Shown here piece after piece: positions 2,982-16,673 of a stretch of DNA of 21,653 nt. This stretch comes from an uncultured Oscillospiraceae bacterium. Lineage in GTDB: Bacteria > Bacillota > Clostridia > Oscillospirales > Oscillospiraceae. Below the pieces are notes generated by a model. The model was not told the origin of the DNA. It did not search any database and worked only from the letters and a program-made list of their open reading frames with translations. The translations under genes were made by a program, and so were the position numbers. Position 1 is the stretch's first letter; the number at the start of each line of letters is the position of its first letter. Where the stretch lies: NCBI GenBank assembly GCA_934675115.1, contig CAKUPH010000036.1, positions 1-21,653 of the forward strand, written 5' to 3'.

Positions 2982-5900
2982 TTACTTCCCGACCGTCTCG
3001 CGGAAGCGCATCAGAACAGTGGCAACCTCACCGCGGGTGGCCTTGTCCTTGGGCGCGAGGGCATCGGAGCGGCCCTTGATGAGCCCGTTGGCCACGGCCC
3101 ACTTCATGGCGTCCTCCGCCCAGCCGGAGACCTGATCGGCGTCAGTGAAGGAGATCAGCTCCACGGTGGCGGAAACGTCATAGCCCTTGAGCTGGGCGCA
3201 GCGGTACAGCATGGTGGCCAGCTGCTCGCGGGTGATCTCGGTCTCCATGTTGGTGCCGTCGGACACGCCGTTGGCCATGGCCCACTGGCGGCCCGCAGCG
3301 TACCACGGGGTACCGGCGGTGTTCACGCCCTCCATGCGGGCGAGAACGGTGACGATCATGCCGCGGGTGGTGTTGGCGTAGGGGTCGAAGGTGTCGGCGG
3401 AAACGCCGTTCATCAGGCCGTTGGCCCAGACGTAATCCACGCCCTCATAGAACCAGTCGCCGGTCTTTACATCGGTGAAGGGGAAGTTCGCCTGCACGTC
3501 CTCCGTCCACTTGGCATAGACAGTGGTGGTGCCGGTGAGTGTCACCTCGGCGACGGGCTGGGTCAGCGCCGCATCCAGATACCAGCCGCCGAAGGTATAG
3601 CCGGTCTTGGTGGGCACATAGCCCGCAAGGCTGATGACCGTACCCTTGGGCGCGGTGACATTGGGGATGACGCTGCCGCCGTTGGTGCTGAAGATCAGGG
3701 TGCAGGTGCTGGGATCCACAGGGGCGAACAGCGTGAACTCCGCAGAAGCCACGGCGCTGTCATAGAACTCATCCTTCACGGCGATGGCCTTGACGGTCAG
3801 CGTCTGATAGATGTTCAGCGGGCCGGTGTAGACGGGGCTGTTCGCGGTGGGCGTAGTCCCGTCGGTGGTGTAGTGGATGACCGCCCCCTCAGTCGCGCAG
3901 GTGATGCGGACGGTGGTGCCGCCAGTGAAGAAGCCGCCGTTGGGATCGATAACGGGGGTCTTGACGGTATCCATGTCGGTCTTGTCGAAGGTCTTCTTCA
4001 GCTTCACCGCGCCAGTCGTCTCATCCAGACCGTCCAGCGTCCAGCCGTCGGGGAACTCAGTGCCGTCGAAGCTGTGGTTCTCGTCCGGGGTGAGGGTCAC
4101 GGTGGCGGTATAGGCCGTGTTGAAGTCGAAGGGATCGTGCGCGGGGCTCCAGCTGATGCTGGCGGTGTAGCCCGTACCGGCGGTCACGGTATCCTGCGGC
4201 TTGTTGCCCACCGCGGGAGCGGCGACGTCCAGATCAACAGAAGCGATGGCCGCCTTGTTGACGGTGATGGTGTAGGCCTGCTCGCAGACAGTGCTGCCAG
4301 CCGCGTTCACCAGACGGAGCTTGAAGCTCACGCTGCCGGCGGCGGTGGGCTTACCGGAAACGGTGCCGTCCTTATAGGTCAGGCCAAGGCCGAGCTTGCC
4401 GTCGGTCACAACATTGCCCTTAGCGTCCAGCAGAACGATGGTGCAGCCGTCGTCAGCCGTGAGAGCGGAGTCGTCGGTGCGCACGGCGGTGATTTTGGCG
4501 CTGGTGTAGTCCGCGTCATAGGTCGCGTCGGCCAGCGTATCCGGGGTGAACTTGGCGGAGTCGACAGGCACGCGGACCTCCCACTGAGCATACAGGTTCA
4601 CGTTGCCGTCATTCACGGCGGTGAGGTTCTTGACCGTCTGCCCGTCGCTGTATTTCTCGCCGGTACCGTCAGACTTGGTGTTCCAACCGGCGAAGTTGTA
4701 GCCCGTGCGGGTGAAGGCGTTGGCGGTCAGGTTCTGAGCCACATCGTAGGTGAAGGTCTGAGCGTCCATGGTGCCCTCGCCGCCGTTGGCGTCAAAGGTC
4801 ACCTTGTAGGTGTTGGCCTCCCACTGCGCGACAAAGGTCCAGTCGCCGGTGACAGGCACGGTGTGATCATCTTCAGACGTATAGCGGAAGCCCCCCAGAT
4901 CCCAGCCAGTGAAAGTATAACCCTCGCGGACGGGGGTCGGGAAGGTCAGGTCAGCGCCCTTCACATAGTAGCCGCTGACGTCAGCGGACACGGTGCCGCC
5001 ATTGGCGTTAAAGGTCACATTGTAGACAGTGAGGGTGCCGTCCATATGATAGCCGATCGAATAGCTGTTCCAGCCGCCATGAGTGCTGGGGTTGTAATTC
5101 AGATCCGTCCAGACGATCTTGTCACCCAGCGTGAAATTCTTACTGTCGTCATGGCGCTCGGCGGTAGTATCGGCGGCTGCCAGCTCGGCCAGCACAGTGC
5201 TGAACGGGGCCGCATTTTTGTCAGTGTACGTCGTACCCCTCACCGTGGGCAGCGCCGCGTTGGAGGTCAGCTTGACATAGCAGTACCAGTCGTCGCCGTT
5301 CAGCCGATCTTTCTGGAGCCCGGCGCGGGCCAGATCGGCCGCGGAGAGATCCGCAAGATCGCCATTGCTGTCAACCGTCTTGAAGAAGAGAAATACCGGG
5401 ATCTCGTGCTTGACCTTGATGGTGGCCTGAACCTTGCTGTCGGCGACAGGCTTCCACGCGCCGTTCTCCCACATCCACGTAAGAGTCATGCTGGTGGACC
5501 CGGAAGTCTTCACATGGTTGCCATCGGTCTTATCCGCGTTATACAGCGCGATAAACACGGCCGGGTCAACGGTGATGGAGTAGGTAAAGCCGCTGATGGC
5601 GTTGCCCTCCCGGCCGATCTCGGTAAAGCCGCCCTCGGTATCAAGGGCGTACTCCTTGCGGCCAGTTCTGTCCGTGTGCTCCACGCGGACGGTGTAGGCG
5701 CTGAAATCGGGCTTCAGGTCGCCCGGCTCGGCCTTGACCCACTTGGCGTAATAAGTCTCGCCTGCGGTGAACGTCTCAACGGCTTCGCCGCTGAAATCAG
5801 CGGTGGTGTACCAGCCCTTGAAGTCGTAGCCGTCCTTCTTGGGGGTGACGAGGACGAGGCTGCCCGCATCGTCGTGGCAGTCGTCGTAGTAGCCCTTGTC

Positions 5901-8327
5901 GGCGGGGATGCTGCCGCCGTTCAGGACGGCAAAGATAGCTTTTGTCTTATTGATGCTCTTACGTGTAAGCATCTCAGCATGCTCTTGTGTATCAAAATAG
6001 TACGCAGCAACAGACTCGGCCCCGAAGAAGCTCCAGTTAATCGTGCCAAAAGTAGTGCTGTTGCTTAAATCAACGGTGGTCAATCTGTTCTGACGCAGGA
6101 ACGGGCTGTTTTCCATATCCGGCAGGTTGCCCGCAAAGGTGACCTTTTCAGTGCCGCCCGCACCGGTGAGGTTTTTGAACGCCTGCGCCCCAATGGAGGT
6201 CACACTGGCCGGGATGACCAGTTCCTTCACGTTGGGGAGGTTGTAGCTGGCGCCCTCGCCGATCTTGGTCAAGCGGGTGCCGAGGTCGAGGGTCTTCAGC
6301 TCGGGCAGACCGACAAACATACCGCTGACGATCTCCGTCATGCTCGCGTTGAACACGATCTCTTCCGTGGTGGAAGCGGAGAAAGACCACGCGGGGAAGT
6401 AGGTCACGGTCTCGGGGATAACGACCTTCTGCGCGTCGCAGCCTACGAACGCGCCGCCGACAACATTGGTCACGGTGCTGGGGATCACGTACTCAGCCAC
6501 CGCGTCCGCGCCGCCGGGATAGGCGATGAGGGTAGCCTTGTCGGCGGTCATCAGCACGCCGTCCACCAGCGTAAAGCTCTTGCTGCTGCCGATGTTGAAG
6601 GTCTTGGCGCTCTCGGTGTCGATGCCCCAAGTCGCAATGTCGGTCACGGTGGTGGCAATGTTGTAAGTCTCAACGGAACCCAGGCCGTTAAAGGCATACT
6701 TGCCGATGTTGGTGACCTGCGGGGCCACGGTAACGGCGGTGATGGCGCTGTAGGGCACGCCGGTCTTGGAGACGTTCCACGGCTGGGTGGAATCCGGCTT
6801 AGTGATGTTGCCCTTGAAGTCGGCCATCTTGCCAGAGCCGTAAATGGTCAGGGTGTAGCCGTTTCCGTTGGGAGTCAGGTTCCACTTGGCGTTAGAGCCA
6901 AAGTTGCCGCTGCTGTCCACCGCGCCGCAGTTGCCGGACAACTGGGCATCGTCCCACTTGGCGTAGTAGGTGTTTCCAGCCTTGGCGGGATTCTCATCGG
7001 TAACTTCATTACCATTCTTGTCGAACCAGCCCTTGAAGAGGGAATCGAGCTTCGTGGGGGCAGCCAGCGTACCGGCGGTAAACACGGTCTCGTCGGAGAA
7101 CGTGCCGCCGTCGGTGACGGCGTAGATGACTCTGCTGGAGCTGGAGTTATTGTTATTTCTGTTGCCCCAGTTGTCGTTGGCCAGAGTGCTCTGGACATCG
7201 CTGTTGTTCACATAGAAAATGCAGTCAACGGGAAACTCCCCAGACGCGCTCTTATAGGTATTGAAGGAGATGTCGACCGTGATCGGGCCAACGATCTTGG
7301 ACATATCCACAGAGTGGAGCTGCTTGGCATTAGCGAACGCCGAGTTTCCGATGTCCGTAAGCGTGCTGGGCAGTCTCAGGGTCTGCATGGATCGCCATTC
7401 ACGGGCCACAGAAGCCGGAAGCACCTTCATGCCCTCTCCAACCACCAGAGAGGTCGCGCTGAATTCCTCAGCGAACGCATTGCTGAGGTTGTTGTTTTTT
7501 CCGCCAAGAACGAACTTCATGTATCCGGGCACGGTCAGGGATTCAAGGTTCTGCATATTGGCGAAGGAATAGTAGCCGATCTGCTTGACGTTCGGCAGAT
7601 TGTTCTCGAAATCCACGGTGCGGAAAGCCGTGCCGTAGAAGCCGCTGGTGCCCACGGCGACCACCTCAGCGGGCACCGCCACCGTATCGACGTAGGTGGT
7701 GCCGCCCACAATGCAGGTATTCAGCTTGCTGTCCGAATCGAAAATATTGCTGGGAAGGGCACAGCCGTTGAAATACCCATCGTCACCCTCAGCCAGCTTC
7801 ACCTCGGTCGGCTCAAAGCCGTTCCAGTTCACGGTGGTCAGTTCGGCGCAGTTGGAGTAGATGCGGATGCCGTAGCGGGTCACACTGGAGGTGAACTTCG
7901 CTTCGGTGACCTGCGTATAGGCGAAGGCCCAGTTGCCCAGACCGGTGACGCCGTCCTCCACCACGACCTCCGTGATGGGAACGGTGTGGTTCTCGCTGTC
8001 CGCGAGAGCCGCCAGCGCGGTGTACCACGGGGCGACGGAGACGCCCGTTGCGGGGTCGGTGGGGTTGGTGAAGTCCGCCATGTTGGCGGTCTCAGCGCCT
8101 TCCTTAGCGGAGATGGTCAGGGTGTAGGTGCCGGGGACGTTCTCGTTCTCGGTCAGCGTCCAGGTGACGCTGCTTCCGTCCGCGCCGCACTCGCCGGTCG
8201 CAAAAGCCGCCGTTCCGGTCTCGCCGGTTCCTTCGGTCCCGTCGACCTCATCGGCAAACACCGCCGTTGGAAGAAGCGACAAGACCATCGCCACGGAAAG
8301 AAGAATACTTAGTACTCGCTTTCTCAT
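2982..8327 (-). CDS. Giant secreted surface protein: LRR_5 (BspA-type) modules, InlB B-repeats, chitobiase-like domain, C-terminal SLH domains
   Basis: The product has 1781 residues. A signal peptide (residues 1-25, 'MRKRVLSILLSVAMVLSLLP' then TAVFA|DE) is followed by a module of BspA-type leucine-rich repeats (about 45-395) and an InlB B-repeat ending in 'YYAKW' (about 400-458). A second copy of the same module follows (LRR about 464-790, B-repeat about 796-863). Residues 865-1095 are not recognised. Two more B-repeats lie at about 1100-1168 and 1174-1250. An Ig-like stretch spans about 1250-1460. A chitobiase/hexosaminidase C-terminal-like domain ('HYTTDGTTPTANSPVYTGP') lies at about 1462-1530. 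A fifth B-repeat (about 1543-1607) precedes three SLH motifs (about 1612-1780), which normally anchor proteins non-covalently to secondary cell-wall polymer. An adhesion or surface-structure role is inferred. The start has AAGGAGG at 8336-8342. The gene lies 60 bases after the small cysteine protein and may share its transcript. Confidence 0.92.
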   Translation of the reverse strand: MRKRVLSILLSVAMVLSLLPTAVFADEVDGTEGTGETGTAAFATGECGADGSSVTWTLTENENVPGTYTLTISAKEGAETANMADFTNPTDPATGVSVAPWYTALAALADSENHTVPITEVVVEDGVTGLGNWAFAYTQVTEAKFTSSVTRYGIRIYSNCAELTTVNWNGFEPTEVKLAEGDDGYFNGCALPSNIFDSDSKLNTCIVGGTTYVDTVAVPAEVVAVGTSGFYGTAFRTVDFENNLPNVKQIGYYSFANMQNLESLTVPGYMKFVLGGKNNNLSNAFAEEFSATSLVVGEGMKVLPASVAREWRSMQTLRLPSTLTDIGNSAFANAKQLHSVDMSKIVGPITVDISFNTYKSASGEFPVDCIFYVNNSDVQSTLANDNWGNRNNNNSSSSRVIYAVTDGGTFSDETVFTAGTLAAPTKLDSLFKGWFDKNGNEVTDENPAKAGNTYYAKWDDAQLSGNCGAVDSSGNFGSNAKWNLTPNGNGYTLTIYGSGKMADFKGNITKPDSTQPWNVSKTGVPYSAITAVTVAPQVTNIGKYAFNGLGSVETYNIATTVTDIATWGIDTESAKTFNIGSSKSFTLVDGVLMTADKATLIAYPGGADAVAEYVIPSTVTNVVGGAFVGCDAQKVVIPETVTYFPAWSFSASTTEEIVFNASMTEIVSGMFVGLPELKTLDLGTRLTKIGEGASYNLPNVKELVIPASVTSIGAQAFKNLTGAGGTEKVTFAGNLPDMENSPFLRQNRLTTVDLSNSTTFGTINWSFFGAESVAAYYFDTQEHAEMLTRKSINKTKAIFAVLNGGSIPADKGYYDDCHDDAGSLVLVTPKKDGYDFKGWYTTADFSGEAVETFTAGETYYAKWVKAEPGDLKPDFSAYTVRVEHTDRTGRKEYALDTEGGFTEIGREGNAISGFTYSITVDPAVFIALYNADKTDGNHVKTSGSTSMTLTWMWENGAWKPVADSKVQATIKVKHEIPVFLFFKTVDSNGDLADLSAADLARAGLQKDRLNGDDWYCYVKLTSNAALPTVRGTTYTDKNAAPFSTVLAELAAADTTAERHDDSKNFTLGDKIVWTDLNYNPSTHGGWNSYSIGYHMDGTLTVYNVTFNANGGTVSADVSGYYVKGADLTFPTPVREGYTFTGWDLGGFRYTSEDDHTVPVTGDWTFVAQWEANTYKVTFDANGGEGTMDAQTFTYDVAQNLTANAFTRTGYNFAGWNTKSDGTGEKYSDGQTVKNLTAVNDGNVNLYAQWEVRVPVDSAKFTPDTLADATYDADYTSAKITAVRTDDSALTADDGCTIVLLDAKGNVVTDGKLGLGLTYKDGTVSGKPTAAGSVSFKLRLVNAAGSTVCEQAYTITVNKAAIASVDLDVAAPAVGNKPQDTVTAGTGYTASISWSPAHDPFDFNTAYTATVTLTPDENHSFDGTEFPDGWTLDGLDETTGAVKLKKTFDKTDMDTVKTPVIDPNGGFFTGGTTVRITCATEGAVIHYTTDGTTPTANSPVYTGPLNIYQTLTVKAIAVKDEFYDSAVASAEFTLFAPVDPSTCTLIFSTNGGSVIPNVTAPKGTVISLAGYVPTKTGYTFGGWYLDAALTQPVAEVTLTGTTTVYAKWTEDVQANFPFTDVKTGDWFYEGVDYVWANGLMNGVSADTFDPYANTTRGMIVTVLARMEGVNTAGTPWYAAGRQWAMANGVSDGTNMETEITREQLATMLYRCAQLKGYDVSATVELISFTDADQVSGWAEDAMKWAVANGLIKGRSDALAPKDKATRGEVATVLMRFRETVGK

Positions 8328-8387
8328 TTGGTTTCCTCCTTATGTTTAAGTAGGGTATCCATCTATATAAAACCCGAACCACATCAT

Positions 8388-8609
8388 TCAGGCATAATCT
8401 TTGCAGGCGTACACGCTCTGCCAGCACTCCGGGCACAGCTGCCCCGCGCCGTCCACGTACCCCCGCCGCGTCCCCACGGGGGCGTCCCGCCGGACGCCGG
8501 TGGAGCCGCCGCACAGGGCGCAGCGCTCATATTCAACGCCGCGCTCCGCCGGGGCCATCGCTCCGCGAACGGGACGGAACGCAAAAAGCCTGGAAAAACT
8601 TCTCTTCAT
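8388..8609 (-). CDS. Small four-cysteine (zinc-ribbon-like) protein, function unknown
   Basis: This 73-residue basic protein carries two CxxC knuckles, 'CALC' near residue 30 and 'CPEC' near residue 58, the typical spacing of a structural zinc site. Between them lies 'GGSTGVRRDAPVGTRRGYV'. No signal peptide or membrane segment is present, so it is probably cytoplasmic. The ATG at 8609 is chosen over an upstream in-frame ATG at 8666, which lies inside the preceding gene; a purine-rich GGAAAGTGAG precedes 8609. It starts 7 bases after the stop of the SLH metalloprotease and ends 60 bases before the giant SLH gene, so it sits inside a surface-protein transcription unit. I do not recognise a named family. 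Coding status is supported by the spacing, the paired cysteines and the absence of a competing frame. Confidence 0.6.
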   Translation of the reverse strand: MKRSFSRLFAFRPVRGAMAPAERGVEYERCALCGGSTGVRRDAPVGTRRGYVDGAGQLCPECWQSVYACKDYA

Positions 8610-8616
8610 CTGAAAC

Positions 8617-9762
8617 TCACTTTCCGGCCACCCAGCCGTCCGCCGCCAGCCGATCCAGCATGGCACAGGTCAGCGGCGTGCGCATCTCGTCACACTTGCC
8701 CAGCCGGTAGGCCCGGTAGGCTTCCGCGAAAAACTCGGACGCGCTCTTCTTGCAGTCGCTCCGGCCGAGGACGGACGCCAGCGCGTCCCGCTCGGCGGCG
8801 TAGGCGGCGTTCAGCGCGCCATCCAGCCACGCCGGGGCGTTATGCTGCACGAAGTGGCCCAGCTCGTGGAGAATGGTGGTGCTGTCCCGCGTGAGGACGT
8901 TGCCGTGAACGTCCACGCAGATGAGGGAGCGGGCCGCGTCGGTCAGGCCGTTGGCATTGCCGTAGACCGGGTAGACGGACGCGATGCCGCCGGTGACGAA
9001 CTCGACGGTCCAGCCGTCCTTCGCCATGGCCCGCAGGATCGGCTCCGGCGTCTCGGCCACGTAGGCCCGGGCGCGGCTGGAATTGCTGTAAGCGGTGTTG
9101 TTTTCATATTTAAATGTAAGGCCGGACAAATTTTCCGGACGGAGGACCTTTTCGGCGTCCGCCGGGACGTTTTTGAGGGCCAAGATCATGTGCAGGGCCT
9201 CGGCCCGGGTGACGAGACGGTCGGGGGCGAACGTTCCGCCGTTTCCGCTGACGATGCCCAGCGCCGCGGCGCACTCAATGGCGCTGCGCTGGGCGGCGGT
9301 CAGGCCGTCCAGATCGTCAAAGACCGGCTCCGCCTGGGGCCACGCGGTTGCGCGGGTGGCGGCAAAGACAAGGCACACCGCCTGCGCCCGGGTCAGGGCC
9401 GCGTCCCGGGCCATGGACGCATCGGCGTCCAGCGTCGCCCGGACGGTGAGCACCGGGTTTTCAAGGGCGACGTCGTTGAATTTTTTCACGGAGGAGAGAC
9501 AGCGCACCAGCATCCCGGAGAATTCCTCCAGCGTCACGGTGCCGCCGGCCTTGAACTGCTTTCCGGAAGTATTTTCCAGCACTCCGGACTTCACCGCGTC
9601 GGCCACGTCCTGATAGTACCACTGGCCCGCCCAGACATCAGTGTAGCCGGTGGGAGCCTTCCCACCGGCTGATGCCGCCGCGCCAGCCGGGACGGAGCTC
9701 ACAAGGAGCACCGCCGCCAGCAGAAATGCCGTAGTCATACGCAATTTTTTCAGATAAACCAT
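8617..9762 (-). CDS. SLH-domain secreted metalloprotease with anthrax-lethal-factor-like (ATLF/M34) zinc motifs
   Basis: The product has 381 residues from the ATG at 9762. A signal peptide ('LRMTTAFLLAAVLLVSSVPA') is followed by SLH motifs: one at about 38-88 ('YTDVWAGQWYYQDVADAVKS'), a degenerate middle one, and one at about 150-200 ending 'FAPDRLVTRAEALHMILALK'. The C-terminal domain contains the zincin motif HELGH (H299, E300, H303), then SEFFAEAYRAY with E343 as likely third zinc ligand. This EFFAEA motif about 40-45 residues after HExxH is the arrangement of anthrax lethal factor (AEFFAEAF) and resembles clostridial Pro-Pro endopeptidases, family M34. A surface-anchored endopeptidase is inferred; the substrate is unknown. 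The ATG at 9771 directly abuts the AGGGG ribosome binding site, whereas 9762 has proper spacing, so 9762 was chosen. A small zinc protein and a giant SLH protein follow on the same strand. Confidence 0.85.
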   Translation of the reverse strand: MVYLKKLRMTTAFLLAAVLLVSSVPAGAAASAGGKAPTGYTDVWAGQWYYQDVADAVKSGVLENTSGKQFKAGGTVTLEEFSGMLVRCLSSVKKFNDVALENPVLTVRATLDADASMARDAALTRAQAVCLVFAATRATAWPQAEPVFDDLDGLTAAQRSAIECAAALGIVSGNGGTFAPDRLVTRAEALHMILALKNVPADAEKVLRPENLSGLTFKYENNTAYSNSSRARAYVAETPEPILRAMAKDGWTVEFVTGGIASVYPVYGNANGLTDAARSLICVDVHGNVLTRDSTTILHELGHFVQHNAPAWLDGALNAAYAAERDALASVLGRSDCKKSASEFFAEAYRAYRLGKCDEMRTPLTCAMLDRLAADGWVAGK

Positions 9763-9871
9763 AATAAACATCCCCTGATTTTTAATTTTTCTCTACTGGG
9801 CAAATACCAATTTCGCCGGGGTCTGGTTCATCTTGATACATTGCTCATTGTTTGCGCGTATTCAGTTGTAT

Positions 9872-11011
9872 TCACAGGCCGCGCAGCTCCCCGGCAAAGG
9901 GGAGCGCCGGCTCGGGGCAGTGCCGTTTGCGGCTGACCGTCCCGGCGCACACCGGGCAGCCGGTGCGCTTGTACTGGTTCGTGCGGTTGCAGACGGCAGT
10001 GCGCCACGCATGCCCCTCCGGGCACTGCCACCAGACCTTCCGGGCGCTGCCCGCGGTGACCTGATCCGGAGTAAGACTGCCGTTGAGCTCCGGGTGCCAC
10101 TGGGCGGCCAGCTCCGGCTCGAGACTGGCGAGGTCGTTGAACCCGGCCAGCACCTTTTTGTTGGCACAATAGGGGCAGCCGTTGGTGCTGCGGGTGCGAT
10201 CCACGATCTTAGCCCGCCACTCGTGGCCAAGGGCGCACTGCCACCACGCGGAGCGGCTGCTGCCGGACACGACCTGCTCCGGCGTGAAGTTCCCGTTCTT
10301 TTCCGGGTGCCATTCGGCGGCGATGACCGGATACTGCGTGCGCAAATCGTTGTATCCGGCAAGAACCACGTCGTTCGCGCAGACGGGGCAGCCGGACCCC
10401 ATCCGGACCCGCGTGTGCGGCGAGGCCTGCCATTCATGGCCCTTCCTGCACATCCACCAGACTTTTCTGTCGTGGCCGTAGGTGACCATCTGGGGCGTAA
10501 GATCGCCGTTCTTCGTCGGGTGCCACTGGGCGGCCAGCTGGGGGTGAGTGGTGGCGAGATCGTTCACCCCGGGGACCACCACGCGGTTGGCGCACACCGG
10601 GCAGCCGCAGCCCGACGCCCGGGAGGACACCGCCGCCTGCCAGCTGTGGCCCTTTTCGCACCGCCACCAGATCTTCTGGTGGCTTCCGGCGGACAACTGC
10701 TCCGGCGTGAGATCGCCGTTCTTTTCCGCGTCCCACTGGGTGGCCAGCTGAGGGTGCGTGGTGGCAAGGTCGTTGAACCCGGCCTGAATCACCCGGCCCG
10801 CGCAGACGGGGCAGCCGCGGTTTTTCTGGAGGCGGTCGTAGGCGGTCTGCTGCCACGTGTGGCCAAAGCGGTCGGACCACCAGATCTTCACGCTGCAGTC
10901 GGACGCGGATACGCCGCGCATGTCGATGCCGGCGTTTTTCGTCCGGTCCCACTGGGCGATCAGATCGGTACGCCCCTGGATCCGGCACCCTTCCGCAAGG
11001 CTCGCTTTCAT
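9872..11011 (-). CDS. Protein of five tandem zinc-ribbon repeats (DUF4379-like)
   Basis: The 379-residue product consists almost entirely of five repeats of about 70 residues, at about 14-81, 82-151, 152-222, 223-293 and 294-360. Each has the pattern AxQWxxxKNGxLTPxxxxxGSxxKxWWxC, then GHxWxxxxxxR, then GCPxCA and a terminal GFND-type turn. The Cys, the His of GH and the two Cys of CPxC would bind one zinc per repeat. Repeat 1 has Asp47 in place of the first Cys and is probably degenerate. The pattern matches the probable zinc-ribbon family PF14311 (DUF4379), which is of unknown function; nucleic-acid binding is a common guess. No signal peptide is seen. A GTG at 11020 is possible, but AAAGGGG sits 8 bases before ATG 11011, so the latter was chosen. 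No terminator is evident in the 109 bases before the protease gene. Confidence 0.85.
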   Translation of the reverse strand: MKASLAEGCRIQGRTDLIAQWDRTKNAGIDMRGVSASDCSVKIWWSDRFGHTWQQTAYDRLQKNRGCPVCAGRVIQAGFNDLATTHPQLATQWDAEKNGDLTPEQLSAGSHQKIWWRCEKGHSWQAAVSSRASGCGCPVCANRVVVPGVNDLATTHPQLAAQWHPTKNGDLTPQMVTYGHDRKVWWMCRKGHEWQASPHTRVRMGSGCPVCANDVVLAGYNDLRTQYPVIAAEWHPEKNGNFTPEQVVSGSSRSAWWQCALGHEWRAKIVDRTRSTNGCPYCANKKVLAGFNDLASLEPELAAQWHPELNGSLTPDQVTAGSARKVWWQCPEGHAWRTAVCNRTNQYKRTGCPVCAGTVSRKRHCPEPALPFAGELRGL

Positions 11012-11104
11012 CTGAGCCACCCCTTTCTATCGTCATTATGTTCCTATTGTGTTCCGTACCATTGAACTACACCAAGTACACCAATAGGACAACAGAAGTT
11101 TCAA

Positions 11105-11140
11105 CAAAAAAAGACACACCGGAGGCTTCCGGTGTGTCTT
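11105..11140 (-). terminator. Rho-independent terminator of the two-component operon
   Basis: AAGACACACCGGA (11111-11123) and TCCGGTGTGTCTT (11128-11140) form a perfect 13-bp stem with a 4-base loop. On the minus strand it runs straight into seven further T residues. It lies 24 bases after the response-regulator stop codon. Confidence 0.92.
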
Positions 11141-11164
11141 TCCCGTTGCTGTTCTGATGGTGTT

Positions 11165-11983
11165 TTACCGATCCTGTCTGGTTTCCTTCTCCTCTTCTTC
11201 CAGACAGTGGGTGTACAGTTCGCCGTTGGTGAACTCCGCCCAGCTGTAGTTGCTCATATACTCGCCCTGATAATTTCCCGTGGCCTGGGGGTCTCCGGCC
11301 AGATAGTCGTACAGGTCGCACTGGACCCGCGACGTATCCACCGAGGTCTGGTTCCGCGTCCGGACCAGCACATCCCCGCAGCCCGCCTCCTCCAGCGTCT
11401 GCCGCAGGGAGGACATGACGGTCTGCACGTTGCGGACCTTGGTATCGTCGTCCCAGAGCACCATGGCGATCTCCGCGTTGCTCACCGGCGCGCCCCGCCG
11501 GTCGATGAGGAAGGCAAACAGCTCCTTGGCCTTCTGCCGCTTCCACGGCAGGAGCTTTCCCTCGTGGAACACGGCGAAGTTGCCGAAGGTCTGGACGTAC
11601 AGGTGCGAAGTCTCCTGCCGGGGCAGCATCAGGTCGATCTGCTTGAGGGCGCCCCGGATCTTTTCCTCCGTGATGGGCTTGAGCAGGTAGCCCACCGCGT
11701 AAATGTTGAAGGCGTCCAGCGCGAATCCGGCGTAGGCCGTGCAGAAAATGATCCGCACCGCCGGGTGCTCCTTCTTGATCTCGGCGGCAAGGTCGATGCC
11801 CAGCATCCCCCGGAGCTGGATGTCCAGAAAGGCGTAGACCACCGGGGCGGCGGCATCCTTCAGAAAAGCGATGGCATCCGTCGGCTCGTCAAAGGAAACG
11901 ACCTCGTATTCCTCCGCCTGGAACACCTTTTTCAAGCTGTTGGTCAGTGCCGTCAGCATCAGCGGCTCGTCGTCCACCGCCAT
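11165..11983 (-). CDS. Response regulator with receiver, OmpR-like winged helix and SARP-type (BTAD-like) C-terminus
   Basis: The 272-residue product begins with a receiver domain (1-120): acidic pocket D4/D5, phospho-acceptor D54 ('FLDIQL'), T82 and K102 ('LLKPI'). A trans_reg_C-type winged helix follows at about 128-200 ('WKRQKAKELFAFLIDRRGAP'). A short C-terminal part ('DYLAGDPQATGNYQGEYMSN') resembles the start of the bacterial transcriptional activator domain of SARP regulators. It is the phosphorylation partner of the adjacent kinase and probably a DNA-binding activator; its targets are unknown. The kinase stop lies inside AGAGGTGA, a good ribosome binding site, but the first ATG is 24 bases beyond it. 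An in-frame ACG about 6 bases after that site would add TDTNAYI, so the true start may be non-ATG. A strong terminator follows. Confidence 0.88.
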   Translation of the reverse strand: MAVDDEPLMLTALTNSLKKVFQAEEYEVVSFDEPTDAIAFLKDAAAPVVYAFLDIQLRGMLGIDLAAEIKKEHPAVRIIFCTAYAGFALDAFNIYAVGYLLKPITEEKIRGALKQIDLMLPRQETSHLYVQTFGNFAVFHEGKLLPWKRQKAKELFAFLIDRRGAPVSNAEIAMVLWDDDTKVRNVQTVMSSLRQTLEEAGCGDVLVRTRNQTSVDTSRVQCDLYDYLAGDPQATGNYQGEYMSNYSWAEFTNGELYTHCLEEEEKETRQDR

Positions 11984-12004
11984 GATATATGCGTTCGTAT
12001 CGGT

Positions 12005-13216
12005 TCACCTCTTTGGTATCTCTATGCGCACCGTAGTGCCCACGCCGCTGGTGCTGGTAAAAAACACGTCGCCGCCGGTGAGGGTGCGGATCCGTTCCCG
12101 CACGCTCTCCAACCCGATGTGCTCCCGGTCGCCGCTGAGTTTGATCTCGTCGATGCTCTTCGCATCGACGCCCACGCCGTTGTCCTGCACCGTGATGACG
12201 TAGTTCGCGCCCTCCTCCCGGACAGAGAGGGAAACCGTTCCGCCGCCGGGCTTCTGGCCCACGCCGTGGCTCACCGCGTTGCTCAGAATAGGCTGAATGG
12301 TGAGGGACGGAACGCCGAAGTCCACGTCCGCGATGTCGTAGACGATGTTCAGCTTTTTACCGTACCGGAGCAGCTCCAGATCGGCGTAGCGGCGGACATT
12401 GGCCACCTCCTGCGCAACGGGGATCAGCTGCGCGCCGCCCACGGCGGCGTTGATGTTCTCCCGGAGGACGGTGCACAGCTGGTCGATGTAAAACTGCGCC
12501 TGTTTGGGGTCCATGTCACACAGAATGCTGATGGACGCCAGTGAATTGCAGATAAAGTGGGGCTGCACCTGATCGAGCATGAGCCGCGTCCGCGTTTCGC
12601 GTTCCCGGATCTTCTTCTCTTCTGCCTCGTGGATGAGGGCGTCGTAGTGGTTCTTGGAGCGGTACCAGCCCATGGGACAGCCCAGCACGGCGGCGAATAT
12701 GTAATTAAAGGTATTGGCCACCGTCAGCGCGTCTCTGACAATGCCGTGCTCGATGCCGATGGAGATGCACAGCGCAGCGGCCGTCAGCGAGAAGTTCACC
12801 CGTGGTCTGCCGTCAAAGAACGTGTTGAAGGCCACCAGCGCGATGCACTGCATGACGTTGACGACCTCCGGGTAGAGCCGCATGTCATAGTAAAGCGCCG
12901 AAAAGTACACGAGGACGATGAACCCGGTACACATCAGGCGGCTGTATTTGAGCTGTCGCTCCCGGATCATCCACCTGACCACCGGACGCGTGAGGAGCAG
13001 CACCGCGATTGGCAGGAGAAAACGAAGCCGCAGGCTGGGATCGGCGCTGGGGAGAAACCAATAGACAACGCCGGCCACAAATATGGCCGGGATGAACAGC
13101 GTGTAGTAATCCATCAGGTAGCGCAGATTGTCATACGCGATCCTGTCGTTGAAAGCATTCAGCTCCTGCTCCGTATGGCCGAGCAGCATCCATCGTTTCC
13201 ACTGTTCTCTGAACAT
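12005..13216 (-). CDS. LytS-type membrane sensor histidine kinase (His_kinase + HATPase)
   Basis: The 403-residue product from ATG 13216 has about six hydrophobic segments between residues 30 and 190. A short coiled stretch ('EAEEKKIRERETRTRLMLDQ') leads to the H-box 'QPHFICNSLAS' with H220. The HATPase domain has an N-box-like 'IQPILSNAVSHGV', a G-box 'DNGVG' and 'HIGLESVRERI'. This is the LytS/YesM-type architecture, in which the kinase autophosphorylates on the His of QPHFxxN. The Cys after 'HFI', where Phe or Tyr is usual, is unusual. An upstream ATG at 13288 has no ribosome binding site, while GGAGGG precedes 13216 with a 10-base gap. The stop overlaps the ribosome binding site of the response regulator, so the two are translationally linked. 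Its promoter appears to lie in the possibly invertible region upstream, with a leader of roughly 270 bases. Confidence 0.9.
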   Translation of the reverse strand: MFREQWKRWMLLGHTEQELNAFNDRIAYDNLRYLMDYYTLFIPAIFVAGVVYWFLPSADPSLRLRFLLPIAVLLLTRPVVRWMIRERQLKYSRLMCTGFIVLVYFSALYYDMRLYPEVVNVMQCIALVAFNTFFDGRPRVNFSLTAAALCISIGIEHGIVRDALTVANTFNYIFAAVLGCPMGWYRSKNHYDALIHEAEEKKIRERETRTRLMLDQVQPHFICNSLASISILCDMDPKQAQFYIDQLCTVLRENINAAVGGAQLIPVAQEVANVRRYADLELLRYGKKLNIVYDIADVDFGVPSLTIQPILSNAVSHGVGQKPGGGTVSLSVREEGANYVITVQDNGVGVDAKSIDEIKLSGDREHIGLESVRERIRTLTGGDVFFTSTSGVGTTVRIEIPKR

Positions 13217-13398
13217 GGACCAAACACCCTCCGTTTCTCCGGGTTCTCCACTTCGGTGTTTCCGGGAATTGCAACAGAACAACAACAAAAACCTCCGGCC
13301 CGCGAAAAATTTTTTCTGCTTTTTTCCGAAAATTTATCCGGAATTTCCAGCGTGTGTCAGATACCCTTTATATGGAAAATTCATTTTCAAGGGACCAA

Positions 13399-13416
13399 AC
13401 ATAATTTTTGTTATGT
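13399..13416 (+). repeat. Recombinase-core-like repeat, copy 1
   Basis: The sequence is ACATAATTTTTGTTATGT: inverted arms ACATAA/TTATGT around the asymmetric spacer TTTTTG. It is identical to copy 2, which starts 33 bases later in the same orientation. The outer arm bases (ACCAA to the left, GGTGT to the right) differ from copy 2, so conservation stops at the 18-bp core. Confidence 0.85.
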
Positions 13417-13431
13417 GGTGTACGCCTTGCG

Positions 13432-13449
13432 ACATAATTTTTGTTATGT
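13432..13449 (+). repeat. Recombinase-core-like repeat, copy 2 (best dif-like symmetry)
   Basis: The 18-bp core is identical to copy 1. Here the dyad extends to 11-base arms: TTGCGACATAA on the left and TTATGTTGCAA on the right of the 6-base spacer, with one mismatch. Two 11-base arms around 6 bases is the XerC/XerD (dif) format, and the right arm resembles the TTATGTTAAAT arm of E. coli dif. This is probably one recombination site of the switch. Confidence 0.75.
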
Positions 13450-13496
13450 TGCAAAAAAGTTCCAAAAAACGCGGAATACACCTCATCGCATACACT

Positions 13497-13525
13497 AAAA
13501 TAGCACATTCAGATGAGATGTTCAA
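13497..13525 (-). promoter_or_regulatory. Promoter candidate inside the switch, directed at the histidine kinase
   Basis: On the minus strand, TTGAAC (-35, 13520-13525) is followed by a 17-base spacer and TATTTT (-10, 13497-13502), preceded by an extended -10 TGC. In the present orientation it would start transcription near 13490 and read leftward through copies 2 and 1 into the kinase gene. Inversion would turn it towards the recombinase 3' end. Confidence 0.6.
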
Positions 13526-13598
13526 GCCTGAATTGCAGTTTTTGCGTTCAGGCCCGCAGTACCGCACATTTTCAAAAGTACAACAGGCACGAAAACAA

Positions 13599-13634
13599 GG
13601 CCAATGAGTACCAATTTTTCATTGGCCGGTTTTG
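13599..13634. terminator. Terminator-like hairpin inside the switch
   Basis: GGCCAATGA (13599-13607) and TCATTGGCC (13619-13627) make a perfect 9-bp stem with an 11-base loop. It is followed by GGTTTTG on the plus strand and TTGTTTTCG on the minus strand, so weak termination is possible both ways. It would stop recombinase read-through before the kinase-directed promoter in either orientation of the segment. No other terminator follows the recombinase. Confidence 0.5.
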
Positions 13635-13646
13635 CCATGTTAAAAT
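13618..13646 (+). promoter_or_regulatory. Weak extended -10 promoter candidate, rightward
   Basis: TGT precedes TAAAAT (13641-13646) as an extended -10, with only a poor -35 (TTCATT, 13618-13623) 17 bases upstream and partly inside the hairpin. It now points towards the recombinase 3' end; after inversion it would face the kinase. Confidence 0.3.
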
Positions 13647-13713
13647 GGAGTATGCTGCATAAATATTCTGCCGAATATTCATCCTGTGTACGCGATCACA
13701 GGGCGCCGTTGTC

Positions 13714-13731
13714 ACATAACAAAAATTATGT
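13714..13731 (-). repeat. Recombinase-core-like repeat, copy 3 (inverted)
   Basis: Read on the minus strand this is exactly the same 18-mer as copies 1 and 2, including the asymmetric TTTTTG spacer. It is therefore in opposite orientation to both. It lies 38 bases beyond the recombinase stop codon and forms the right boundary of the possible invertible segment. Confidence 0.8.
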
Positions 13732-13769
13732 TGCGGACGCCTGTGCGGGAAAAAGCTATGTCGCCGCCG

Positions 13770-14609
13770 TCATGCCAGCAGCCGCAGCCGCTCCATCTGC
13801 TTCCGGTGTTCCTGCCCGGTGGTCATGATATAGATGCGCGTGGTGTTGATGCTGCTGTGGCCCAGCACGTCGGCCAGCTTCGCGATATCCTTATCCAGAC
13901 TGTAAAACGTCCGGGCAAAGAGCTTCCTCAGATTGTGGGGAAACACTTTGTCCGGATTTACGTCTGCCCGCTGGCACAGGGCTTTCATGGCCGCCCAGAT
14001 GTGACTGCGGTTCATCGGCCTGCCCGTCCGGGTGCGGAAGATGACCCCGCCGGTGATGCCGGACCTTCCCGCATACCGCAGCAGCAGCTTCTGGAGCTTG
14101 GCCGGGATGAGGATCTTCCGGGTCTTGTTCTTGCAGGTCACGCTGATCTCTCCCCTCCGCGCCGCCTCCACCGTGAAGTATTGCAGCTCTGACACCCGGA
14201 TGCCGGTGGCGCAGATGGTCTGAAGCAGGAGCCACAGCCGCCGGTCCCCCTCCGCCGCCTGCAAAAGCCGCAGGTACTCCGCCCGGCTCAGCTCCTTTTC
14301 CTCCGGCAGGTAGATCTCCCGCTGCATCCGGCACAGCTTGACCTTGCAGTCCGTCCGACCGCAGAAGGTCAGAAAGCTGTTCAGCGACGCCAGCATGGAG
14401 TTGATGGACCGCGGGGCGTAGCCCTGCTCCGTCAGGTGCTGCTTGTAGGCGATGGCCCGCTCCTTTGTGACCGGCTCCCCGGCCAGATACCGGGCGAAGT
14501 GCCGGACGTCCCGGAGATACTTCTCGATGGTCCGGCTGCTCTTCTCCTCTTCGTACAAATTCTGCGCGTACCGTCCGATGATCGCCTGCGTCAGATAAGT
14601 TTCTTCCAT
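13770..14609 (-). CDS. Tyrosine recombinase (XerC/D-like), probable DNA invertase of the adjacent switch
   Basis: The 279-residue product has the two domains of compact tyrosine recombinases. The N-terminal SAM-like core-binding domain (about 1-95) contains 'KSSRTIEKYLRDVRHFARYL'. The catalytic domain carries R138 ('TGIRVSEL'), a beta-hairpin Lys ('CKNKTRKILIP'), H225 and R228 ('PHNLRKLFA'), His251 ('LGHSS') and the nucleophile Y260 ('NTTRIYI'), so all key residues are present. Such enzymes cut and rejoin DNA at paired core sites with 6-8 bp spacers. There are no phage or conjugative genes nearby, and three dif-like sites lie just downstream, so promoter inversion is the favoured role. ATG 14609 has an AAAGGCGGAG ribosome binding site. 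The ATG at 14666 has none and would place the TATAAT inside the coding region. Confidence 0.9.
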   Translation of the reverse strand: MEETYLTQAIIGRYAQNLYEEEKSSRTIEKYLRDVRHFARYLAGEPVTKERAIAYKQHLTEQGYAPRSINSMLASLNSFLTFCGRTDCKVKLCRMQREIYLPEEKELSRAEYLRLLQAAEGDRRLWLLLQTICATGIRVSELQYFTVEAARRGEISVTCKNKTRKILIPAKLQKLLLRYAGRSGITGGVIFRTRTGRPMNRSHIWAAMKALCQRADVNPDKVFPHNLRKLFARTFYSLDKDIAKLADVLGHSSINTTRIYIMTTGQEHRKQMERLRLLA

Positions 14610-14640
14610 ATCGCTCCGCCTTTCCGTGATGATACAGCTT

Positions 14641-14646
14641 ATTATA
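14641..14646 (-). promoter_or_regulatory. -10 element of the recombinase promoter
   Basis: A perfect TATAAT lies on the minus strand 31 bases before the chosen start codon. The matching -35 position holds only TTTATG after 17 bases, so the promoter is probably weak or needs an activator. Confidence 0.5.
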
Positions 14647-14775
14647 CCCGGGACGGCGGTTTTCATAAATAAAGGAGCGGTGTGCCGCCTGTTGACATGT
14701 GCCAGACTTCGCCCGCGGTGGGCTGCTGGCCTTCCGCGTAATCAGCACGTTATGAGCAAAACAGAATAAGCCGCA

Positions 14776-14832
14776 CAAAAAGCACAAGGCCCGCAACCTT
14801 CCCGGCGCGGGCCTTGTGCTTACAGTTTTTTC
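14776..14832 (-). terminator. Terminator of the sigma/DUF4179 operon
   Basis: AGCACAAGGCCCGC (14781-14794) and GCGGGCCTTGTGCT (14807-14820) form a perfect 14-bp stem with a 12-base loop. On the minus strand it is followed by TTTTTGTG. It begins 12 bases after the DUF4179 gene stop and separates that operon from the recombinase gene. Confidence 0.88.
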
Positions 14833-16173
14833 TCAGTAAACGGTGATCTCCATGGGCGTCTCCAGACTGTACCACAGCGTCCGGCTCAGCCGGAGGGTCA
14901 CGGTGTCGTAGGCGTAGTCCGGGTTCAAAAAGACATAGGGGGTCATGATGTCCAGATCATCGCGGGTGCCCACGCCGCCCTGGGTGCAGTAGTACTCCTC
15001 CCCCGTTGGGTCGAAGTAGGTCCAAGCGAACAGATCACCGGCCCCGGAGCCGTGCAGCGGCGCCTCAAACGCCAGTCTGATGCTTTTCTCATCGCCGTCG
15101 CGGTATACGCCGGTGAGCTTCGCGCCCTCCGGCAGGCCCGACGCCGTCTTGTGCACCAGATCCACCGTCACGTCCCGCTTGTCCGGGTCCAGCCACGAAA
15201 CGCCGGTGACGCACAGGGTCAGGTGCTTTGCCTTGGAGAACCACGGACTGGCCACCCGGCGGTCGAAGGCAAAGCCCGTCACCGGGTCGCTGTACCCGCC
15301 GATGCCGCCCTCCATCTCGTAGCGGTTTCCGTCGTCGTCCTCCAGATAAAATTCCAGATCCTTCAGGCGCATGGTGTTGTCCCCGCTGTCCCCAAGCTTG
15401 AGCCGGGCGTGGGTGGGATAGATCTCCAACGTCTCCACGTAGATGTGCTGGCCGTCCAGCTCCAGCCAGCGGCCGATCTCGCACACCTTGCCGCTGGCGG
15501 TGTACGCCGGGTCGAAGCTGATGTCGAAGGTGAACTCCGTGCCCGTCGGTTCGGTGTCCGCGGGCCGCCCGGCCTCGGCCACGGCGGTCAGGCTCTCGAA
15601 GGGATAGGCCCGGAAGGTGATGGTCATGTGGTCGGGCACCTGATTTTTGTCGTTGAAGTCGATGATATACCGGCGCAGCTCGCCGTTTTCCTCCTGCTGG
15701 CCCTCCGTGACCACCGCGAATTCCCGGCCGCCCACGTCGATGTCGTAGTTGAGCACGGTGTAGGGCTTCGTTTTGTCGTCGTTCTTTACGGAGACGAACA
15801 GGTTCACCTGCTGCTGATCCACGATGACGTATTCCGCCGTCATGGTGATGCCGTTTTTCGTCTGTCTCTGGCCGATGACCTGCACGTAGTCGTTTTCCAC
15901 CGCCCGGCTCAGGCTCCCCGACCAGTCCACCGCCGCCGCCAGATCGCCCAGCACCGGGATGCCGGAGCAGGCCAGCGCGAAGGTGGGCACCGTGTTCACC
16001 AGCAGCACAAATGCGGCGAACACCCCCGCAAGGCTCCCCAGCGGCAGGCCCCAGCGCCGCGCCCGGCGGCTGCTCTTCGCCCGGGCCCGCGCCCGGGTCA
16101 CGGTGTATTCCAGCTCCGCCGGGGTATTGTCCAGTTCCCGGTCCAGCGCTTCAAATTCTTCCATCCGGTTCAT
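14833..16173 (-). CDS. DUF4179-domain membrane protein, probable anti-sigma factor of the adjacent ECF sigma
   Basis: The 446-residue product starts with a short Glu-rich cytoplasmic segment and a strongly basic stretch ('RARARAKSSRRARR'). A single membrane helix follows at about 41-66 ('LPLGSLAGVFAAFVLLVNTV'). The large extracytoplasmic part opens with the DUF4179 signature 'VPTFALACSGIPVLGDLAAA' and continues with a mostly beta-strand region. DUF4179 proteins are regularly encoded after ECF sigma factors in Firmicutes, where they are thought to hold the sigma factor at the membrane until a signal arrives; the signal is unknown. The start codon overlaps the sigma stop codon (ATGA at 16170-16173), and AGGAGG lies 8 bases upstream, so translation of the pair is coupled. 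A strong terminator follows. Confidence 0.87.
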   Translation of the reverse strand: MNRMEEFEALDRELDNTPAELEYTVTRARARAKSSRRARRWGLPLGSLAGVFAAFVLLVNTVPTFALACSGIPVLGDLAAAVDWSGSLSRAVENDYVQVIGQRQTKNGITMTAEYVIVDQQQVNLFVSVKNDDKTKPYTVLNYDIDVGGREFAVVTEGQQEENGELRRYIIDFNDKNQVPDHMTITFRAYPFESLTAVAEAGRPADTEPTGTEFTFDISFDPAYTASGKVCEIGRWLELDGQHIYVETLEIYPTHARLKLGDSGDNTMRLKDLEFYLEDDDGNRYEMEGGIGGYSDPVTGFAFDRRVASPWFSKAKHLTLCVTGVSWLDPDKRDVTVDLVHKTASGLPEGAKLTGVYRDGDEKSIRLAFEAPLHGSGAGDLFAWTYFDPTGEEYYCTQGGVGTRDDLDIMTPYVFLNPDYAYDTVTLRLSRTLWYSLETPMEITVY

Positions 16174-16673
16174 GTCTCTGCCTCCTCTCCAAGCTCCAGC
16201 CGCAGCAGGGCCAGCGCCCGCCGCTGGCGGCCCGCCGCCGTCCCCTGAGGGATGCGCAGGATGTCCGCCGTCTCCGCGAGGGTGTACCCGGAAAAATACC
16301 GCAGGGCCACCACCGCCCGCAGCTCCCGGGGCAGGCGCTCCACCGCCTCCCGAAGGGGCAGGGCGTCAAACTGCTCCGCCGCCGTCTCCGGAAGCTCTTC
16401 GGTGGCCAGCTCCCGCTTTCTCCGCCGCAGCTCGTTGTTGCACTCATTCATTAAAATTCTTGTCATCCACGTGGCGAAATACTCCGGCTTTTTGAGCTTC
16501 TTGCAGCTTAAAAAGCCCTTGTATACCGCCTCGTCCACCGCGTCCAGCGCGGCGCTCTCTCCGCCGAGATACATCCGGGCGGTGCGGTACAGCCGCTTTT
16601 TGAGCTCCTGCACCCGCTCCGCGTATTCCTGTTCGTTCAGGGCGCCCGCCCCCTTTCTGAAAGGTCCTTTCAC
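16170..16673 (-). CDS. ECF-type RNA polymerase sigma factor
   Basis: The product has 167 residues from GTG 16673. Sigma region 2 spans about 25-85, with the core-binding and -10 recognition part 'KLKKPEYFATWMTRILMNEC'. Region 4 spans about 105-160 and contains a helix-turn-helix ('GYTLAETADILRIPQGTAAG'). The length and lack of regions 1 and 3 fit ECF sigma factors, which direct RNA polymerase to stress or envelope promoters. It is coupled to the DUF4179 gene by an ATGA overlap. The GTG has no clear ribosome binding site. AAAGGGGG lies 8 bases before an in-frame CTG at 16637 that would give (M)NEQEYAERV, the usual-looking N-terminus of this group, so the true start may be that CTG. The gene is divergent from mutY. 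Confidence 0.9.
   Translation of the reverse strand: MKGPFRKGAGALNEQEYAERVQELKKRLYRTARMYLGGESAALDAVDEAVYKGFLSCKKLKKPEYFATWMTRILMNECNNELRRRKRELATEELPETAAEQFDALPLREAVERLPRELRAVVALRYFSGYTLAETADILRIPQGTAAGRQRRALALLRLELGEEAET

Follow-up and report, generated by a model that had tools for sequence, protein, structure and literature searches.

The locus described here is best explained as a promoter segment that would be flipped by the tyrosine recombinase encoded beside it, switching a histidine kinase and response regulator operon ON and OFF, with a probability estimated at about 0.87 from sequence comparison. It lies within the window, which is the whole stretch of 21,653 nucleotides that was analyzed and comes from a Clostridia-type gut bacterium. 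An invertible promoter ahead of a two-component system had been proposed in the preliminary description, and this is supported by spacers that match in 55 of 56 strict site pairs, site pairs at 87 of 125 loci vs 0 of 625 shuffled stretches, segments in both orientations among relatives, and the position of the promoter. For the family as a whole, comparison of the loci shows the site pairs, spacer pairing, phased distances, both orientations, promoter position and placement of target genes; that the copy in the window flips now is what we infer.

In the proposed mechanism, the tyrosine recombinase would bind the ACATAA and TTATGT arms of its sites, and the proximal core would synapse, over a DNA loop, with one or other of the distal cores, both of which are inverted relative to it. 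Strands would then be exchanged within the 6-nt spacer, inverting a segment of 264 or 297 bp. In the ON orientation the embedded promoter would transcribe the kinase and regulator genes, and in the OFF orientation it would face the 3′ end of the recombinase gene.

Cores, segment and recombinase in the window

Three identical 18-bp cores, two direct and one inverted, had been noted previously, and both their sequence and their positions are exact. Each is near-palindromic, with 6-nt arms (ACATAA and TTATGT) around the asymmetric 6-nt spacer TTTTTG, and matches the motif of the family. The outer distal copy is at 13399..13416 (plus strand), the inner distal copy, a direct repeat of it, at 13432..13449 (plus strand; 33 bp from start to start), and the proximal copy, inverted relative to both, at 13714..13731 (minus strand). 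The proximal core is 282 bp from the inner and 315 bp from the outer distal core, start to start. The predicted invertible segment (13450..13713) therefore measures 264 bp between the inner cores, or 297 bp with the outer distal core, the sizes that had been given before. All four inverted pairs of exact 18-mers that lie up to 400 bp apart in the window come from the two core pairs, and 100 Markov-1 simulations of the window gave zero such pairs. The exact 18-mer core has no further copy in the window and none in the 96 family loci searched, and a search of viral contigs returned four single matches. A hairpin with a perfect 9-bp stem (GGCCAATGA/TCATTGGCC) lies inside the segment at 13599..13627, with a folding z-score of -2.8, and is possibly a two-way terminator. 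Rfam models gave nothing at the gathering threshold over 11000-15000 of the window.

The gene at 13770..14609 (minus strand) encodes a tyrosine recombinase of 279 aa, with a catalytic domain (PF00589) and a SAM-like N-terminal domain (PF02899). Its reading frame is intact and ends 38 bp from the inverted core, in agreement with the complete gene reported earlier. Residues R138, H225, R228, H251 and Y260, presumably the catalytic positions of a tyrosine recombinase, are invariant across the 26 recombinase sequences aligned. Compared by sequence with solved structures, the recombinase comes closest to an XerC-like protein, XerA and XerD; its best score with the XerC, XerD and XerA models is 135.8 bits, below a cut-off of 220. 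The protein is 33% identical to a record annotated as PsrA, and its size fits the "simple" class, in which short recombinases without an arm-binding domain are grouped in a passage of PMC8138268. Upstream of the recombinase, at 14780-16673, are genes for an ECF-type sigma factor and a DUF4179/DUF5643 protein, which is perhaps its partner, and a perfect 15-bp inverted repeat at 14780-14821 may be the terminator of these genes.

A family of loci with paired sites

Relatives were collected through the recombinase, with the best 120 of 7999 scored candidates taken as homologs. An alignment of 26 recombinases, used as the query, gave genome loci (the best 80 of 412) and 16 loci from the viral collection; a scan of the genomes with the single protein found no relative, whereas the alignment-based scan did. 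The set of 97 sequences (the window plus 96 loci) contains 140 copies of ACATAA-N6-TTATGT, spread over 80 of its members. The same arms with 5 or 7 nt between them occur zero times in those 97 sequences, and the 6-nt form was counted 0 times in each of five Markov-1 copies of the set.

At 87 of 125 recombinase loci (window included), an inverted site pair whose spacers are complementary lies next to the recombinase gene at its 3′ end, with distance measured from the end of the tblastn match, not from the stop codon. The controls gave no pair in any of the 625 shuffled stretches, nor in 116 stretches upstream of the recombinase. Since the criterion demands complementary spacers, the count is no independent test of spacer pairing, which is provided by the 56 strict pairs considered below. 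The 125 loci omit L097-L114 and L116, from genomes already represented and mostly repeats of earlier loci, among which L100 and L106 are separate loci that both have site pairs. The 38 pairless loci comprise 21 with <330 bp of downstream DNA and 17 with >330 bp; recombinase identity is 45-55% at 14 of these 17 and 58-63% at the other three. At L115 there is a complementary pair 511 bp apart, beyond the distance limit of the survey, and some more distant recombinases have related arms (e.g., ACAAAA/TTTTGT or ACAGAA/TTCTGT) with spacers that are still complementary. No site pair was found at L184, a relative from a phage record. The switch is present in Cuneatibacter caecimuris and Hespellia stercorisuis (L015 and L058), and in Monoglobus pectinilyticus, Subdoligranulum variabile and Pusillibacter faecalis, all named isolates or records.

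The association was also approached from the sites, by a pattern-first search of 17 genomes known to hold the family, which gave 10 further regions with 11 pairs. A recombinase of the family is found in 9 of the 10, and the contig of the tenth ends ~0.5 kb past the pair; of the 13 regions fetched, this count leaves out L159 (reached via its recombinase), L170 (the same locus as L058) and L171 (one core only). Together with the pairs at 87 of 125 recombinase loci, this upholds the tie between recombinase and repeats that had been drawn from the window. The single core at L171 (G011:C28, 4369-4966) lies beside a broken-up recombinase match, and this locus is likely a dead switch.

A strict pair with 228-258 bp between cores occurs in 3 of 300 genomes of one family sample, the reversed-pattern control giving 0 among the matches listed, and a recombinase homolog at E up to 1e-60 in 78 of 300 genomes, a sample of the same family. 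Some relatives sit on plasmids, and 9 of the 16 viral-collection loci have a pair by a looser criterion. These relatives, and the matches of the recombinase to Xer-type models, albeit under their cut-offs, lend something to the reading that the cores have no role in gene control and serve a mobile element or an Xer/dif-like system for attachment or resolution. This is very unlikely, as the paired cores are inverted and not direct in 55 of 56 cases, they enclose a promoter at a preferred position, and the next open reading frame is on the same strand at 71 of 83 loci; 1 contig of IMG/VR, moreover, carries the strict pair at a core separation of 228-258 bp, other spacings also existing there.

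The arms are conserved across loci and the 6-nt spacer differs by locus. Among the 56 strict pairs, which were picked regardless of spacer and include 38 distinct spacers, 55 have spacers that are exact reverse complements and 0 have direct copies; the lone exception (L066) has spacers one base apart. When spacers were dealt among the loci in 2000 shuffles, the mean was 1.7 matches and the maximum 7. Strand exchange within the spacer would require such reverse-complementarity. Avoidance of shared spacers within multi-switch genomes was considered but cannot be claimed, as random loci share spacers in only ~3% of cases (1.7/56) and one genome (G011) repeats a spacer. That genome also has, at L166 (G011:C18, 4694-5687), a duplicated switch segment: the two copies share their spacer and 339 identical bp, face opposite ways and are separated by ~0.5 kb.

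The distance between sites is phased with the DNA helix, with 10.5 bp the best of the periods tried between 5 and 25 bp (n = 81 of 87, R = 0.58, nominal p ~1e-12; six loci with distances of at least 320 bp left out). The loci are related to each other (L090 and L091 look identical), and after thinning for this test to recombinases <70% identical, ~39 loci still give p ~3e-5. Calculated by hand from the mean phase, the distances of 282 and 315 bp in the window each deviate from the favoured phase by no more than 1 bp. With an overlapping match at L125 disregarded, 12 of 87 loci have additional cores in tandem, and the 14 spacings of tandem cores (one from L020) fall near multiples of the helical turn (R = 0.65, p ~0.003). 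Inversion using the outer core would move the extra core to the other end of the segment.

Tandem copies spaced in this way, and cores that are near-palindromic, AT-rich and close to a promoter, would also suit operator repeats that are bound by a regulator and never recombined. There is no evident reason, however, for operators to keep a locus-specific asymmetric spacer inverted between distant copies, or for related loci to carry the segment in opposite orientations, and this reading is the least credible of those considered. With recombination sites as the preferred reading, what was a single locus becomes a family with a readable grammar of conserved arms, a variable paired spacer, a phased distance and a promoter offset. 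Constant arms, locus-specific paired spacers and a phased distance were not found described together in openly licensed text, searched mostly as titles and abstracts.

Promoter position and orientation of the segment

Segments of the family are rich in predicted sigma-70-type promoters: 53 of 174 segment strands have one scoring 9.2 or more, compared with 4 of 348 mononucleotide shuffles. For 50 of these 53, the gap between the end of the -10 element and the site ahead is 25-53 bp, with most values near 36-37 or 45-50 bp. The candidate in the window (13497..13525, minus strand) was picked by position and comparison with the family, and consists of a -35 element TTGAAC at 13525-13520, a 17-bp spacer, and a -10 element TATTTT at 13502-13497 preceded by TGC. 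The interval between the end of this -10 element and the site ahead is 47 bp, which is frequent among family members, and the candidate would transcribe toward the kinase. A promoter aimed at the kinase had been put forward in the preliminary description; the family position supports one, but the consensus is weak and scores below the threshold of the consensus scan. That scan, over 13216-13780, returned TTAACA-18-AAAAAT (13643-13614) and CTGACA-18-TAAATT (13360-13331), i.e., 2 against a shuffled mean of 0.7. Hairpins are present in many segments of the family, and promoter and terminator are opposed in 19 of 28 decisive segments, which is only suggestive because many of the hairpins look two-way.

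Related segments are found in both orientations, as revealed by the alignment of homologous loci that had been recommended for finding the flipped form. With all loci turned to the same recombinase strand, 45 comparisons of homologous segments gave 26 on opposite strands and 19 on the same strand. The clearest example is L030 with L056, where a shared stretch of 1002 bp that takes in the recombinase is 83% identical on the same strand, and the segments are 80% identical on opposite strands. Opposite-strand homology of segments at loci that otherwise align on the same strand implies that related segments have flipped. The promoter state predicted the strand of homology in 35 of 36 decidable comparisons, with 9 of the 45 dropped for an ambiguous state and with L048, L056 and others recurring in many comparisons. 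No flip was seen between the kinase loci of genomes G154 and G391, which have the same relative orientation, and the segments of L162 and L165 are likewise on the same strand. Three plasmid-borne relatives were searched for second alleles in the plasmid collection, and each query matched only itself.

Over the 87 loci, 21 were called ON, 53 OFF and 13 ambiguous, under a rule whose position range was set after viewing the distribution and which assigns a state to 85% of real segments and to 30% of shuffled ones. The window scores as ambiguous, as the difference between its strands is only 0.2, under the threshold of 1.0. A test of alignment direction, which gave the correct sign in 64 of 68 segments on calibration, gives the window a mean of +2.5, 45 of its 68 comparisons being positive. 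A profile of family segments, which in leave-one-out trials on 24 clear segments was right for 21, wrong for two and without a hit for one, had no hit in the window segment. The ON state that had been assigned to the window is therefore probable on account of the 47-bp promoter position and the alignment direction, whilst the promoter score leaves it ambiguous. With the grammar of the family, ON or OFF states can be estimated from assembled genomes, and switch targets listed across uncultured Clostridia.

The weak promoter consensus, and the single orientation at hand for the window, would also agree with a switch that is real by descent and that this strain now holds in one orientation through locking or decay. 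Among relatives there seem to be cases of decay, as in the spacer mismatch at L066 and the single core by a broken-up recombinase at L171. In the window, by contrast, the three cores are identical and the recombinase frame is intact, so this alternative is regarded as improbable, if the most serious of those weighed here.

Known switches and genes downstream of the segment

The fimS switch of Escherichia coli is a short invertible promoter that is turned by the local tyrosine recombinases FimB and FimE, with a recombinase gene beside the switch. The window has the same predicted layout, with different sites and target and with one recombinase. In Clostridioides difficile, the signalling operon cmrRST (Cdi6), which encodes a kinase and regulators, is phase-variable through a short invertible element (PMC6837544, PMC5903667). 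The window differs in that the segment directly adjoins the recombinase gene and appears to contain the promoter, whereas in the 2019 paper the switch mechanism is termed undefined and a sigma-A promoter is put upstream of the switch (PMC6837544). The cwpV switch, also from Clostridia, employs RecV, a tyrosine recombinase of the XerC/D family, to invert 195 bp of DNA ahead of the gene for a surface protein; there the promoter is outside the segment and a terminator is proposed to form in OFF (PMC2784873). PsrA of Streptococcus is likewise a tyrosine DNA invertase, but it is described as shuffling the coding sequence of hsdS, and not a promoter (PMC7096588). The window locus is thus a well-supported further case of a known mechanism, phase-variable signalling being already known from cmrRST.

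A closer counterpart may be inverton group 139 (invertase group 35), with 33 invertons, 32 of them from Clostridia, a tyrosine-type recombinase family and orientation changes in reads (PMC11892184). Repeat coordinates from that source give start-to-start distances of 241 in Intestinimonas butyriciproducens and 231 in Clostridium sp. D5, at or next to distances common in the present family (230 and 241-242). The two may be the same, the comparison being by repeat distances only and not by motif; the passages on group 139 make no mention of constant arms with locus-specific spacers, of phasing, or of a kinase-regulator locus.

A broader reading, which is put forward tentatively and which the evidence does not yet favour, is that these loci are a modular cassette of Clostridia, with surface-protein or two-component targets and a flip-driven feedback on the recombinase that favours OFF. 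The locus-specific spacer would then serve as an address for a single recombinase family with conserved arms, so that one genome could carry several independent switches. Since only a few tens of bp separate the end of the recombinase gene from the segment, a flip would alter its mRNA tail and antisense transcription. This proposed built-in feedback may be likened to fimE in E. coli, the mRNA of which is affected by switch orientation, as recounted in the cwpV paper (PMC2784873). Spacer-based insulation and recombinase feedback both become directly testable.

In the window, the histidine kinase gene (12005..13216, minus strand; 403 aa, LytS-type, His_kinase PF06580 and HATPase_c domains) is followed after 21 bp by the response regulator gene (11165..11983, minus strand; 272 aa, receiver and Trans_reg_C domains), which is SARP-like by the author's reading. 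Three more genes follow on the same strand, which were absent from the preliminary description. These encode a DUF4379 treble-clef protein (9872..11020, 144 bp after the regulator) and a protein with a domain match to S-layer homology (SLH; 8617..9771), both possible members of the operon, and a 1781-aa surface protein with BspA-type LRR, Listeria-Bacteroides repeats and SLH (2982..8327), a possible member of the regulon, ahead of which is a weak terminator-like hairpin (8393-8372). The regulator would control these downstream surface genes.

The same wiring of recombinase, switch and homologous kinase and regulator is shared by L016, L159 and L150, the recombinase of the last being cut by the contig end. 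The regulators of the kinase-regulator loci are ~40% identical over 256 residues. Genes of surface type come next: a 1196-aa open frame with a marginal Listeria-Bacteroides repeat at L159, a signal peptidase gene at L016, and at L150, just before the contig ends, the first part of a protein similar by eye to the 1196-aa one. Kinase homologs at E up to 1e-40 are found in 15 of 400 genomes, 2 of the 15 with an adjacent switch. In a quick tree the window recombinase is far from those of L016 and L117 (the L159 locus), and such distance means that the wiring may have arisen or been re-fitted on more than one occasion. From these kinase-regulator loci it would seem that a signalling relay, and not just a single surface gene, can be set by a flip.

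Where 900 bp or more follow the distal site (83 loci), the longest reading frame nearby is on the recombinase strand at 71, of which 67 start within 200 bp, and on the opposite strand at 12. First target genes were listed for 47 loci and 39 were scanned, 11 without a Pfam match at 1e-4. About 13 are of surface or export type by the author's reading, with signal peptidase S26, collagen repeats, LRR, Listeria-Bacteroides repeats, SpaA and cohesin/dockerin, and others are DUF4379 (3), SPFH, TIR, PLD-helicase, NRPS, TetR and a histidine kinase. The zinc-finger-like DUF4379 proteins recur, as the first target at L013, L065 and L071 and as a downstream gene in the window. Defence-like genes are found directly after the switch at L052 (TIR domain, 7134-9764) and L061 (PLD-helicase, 7146-10325), as is a TnpB-like protein with a Cas12f1-like TNB domain at L040 (7121-8449), and a nonribosomal peptide synthetase gene follows the switch at L077 (5515-9780).
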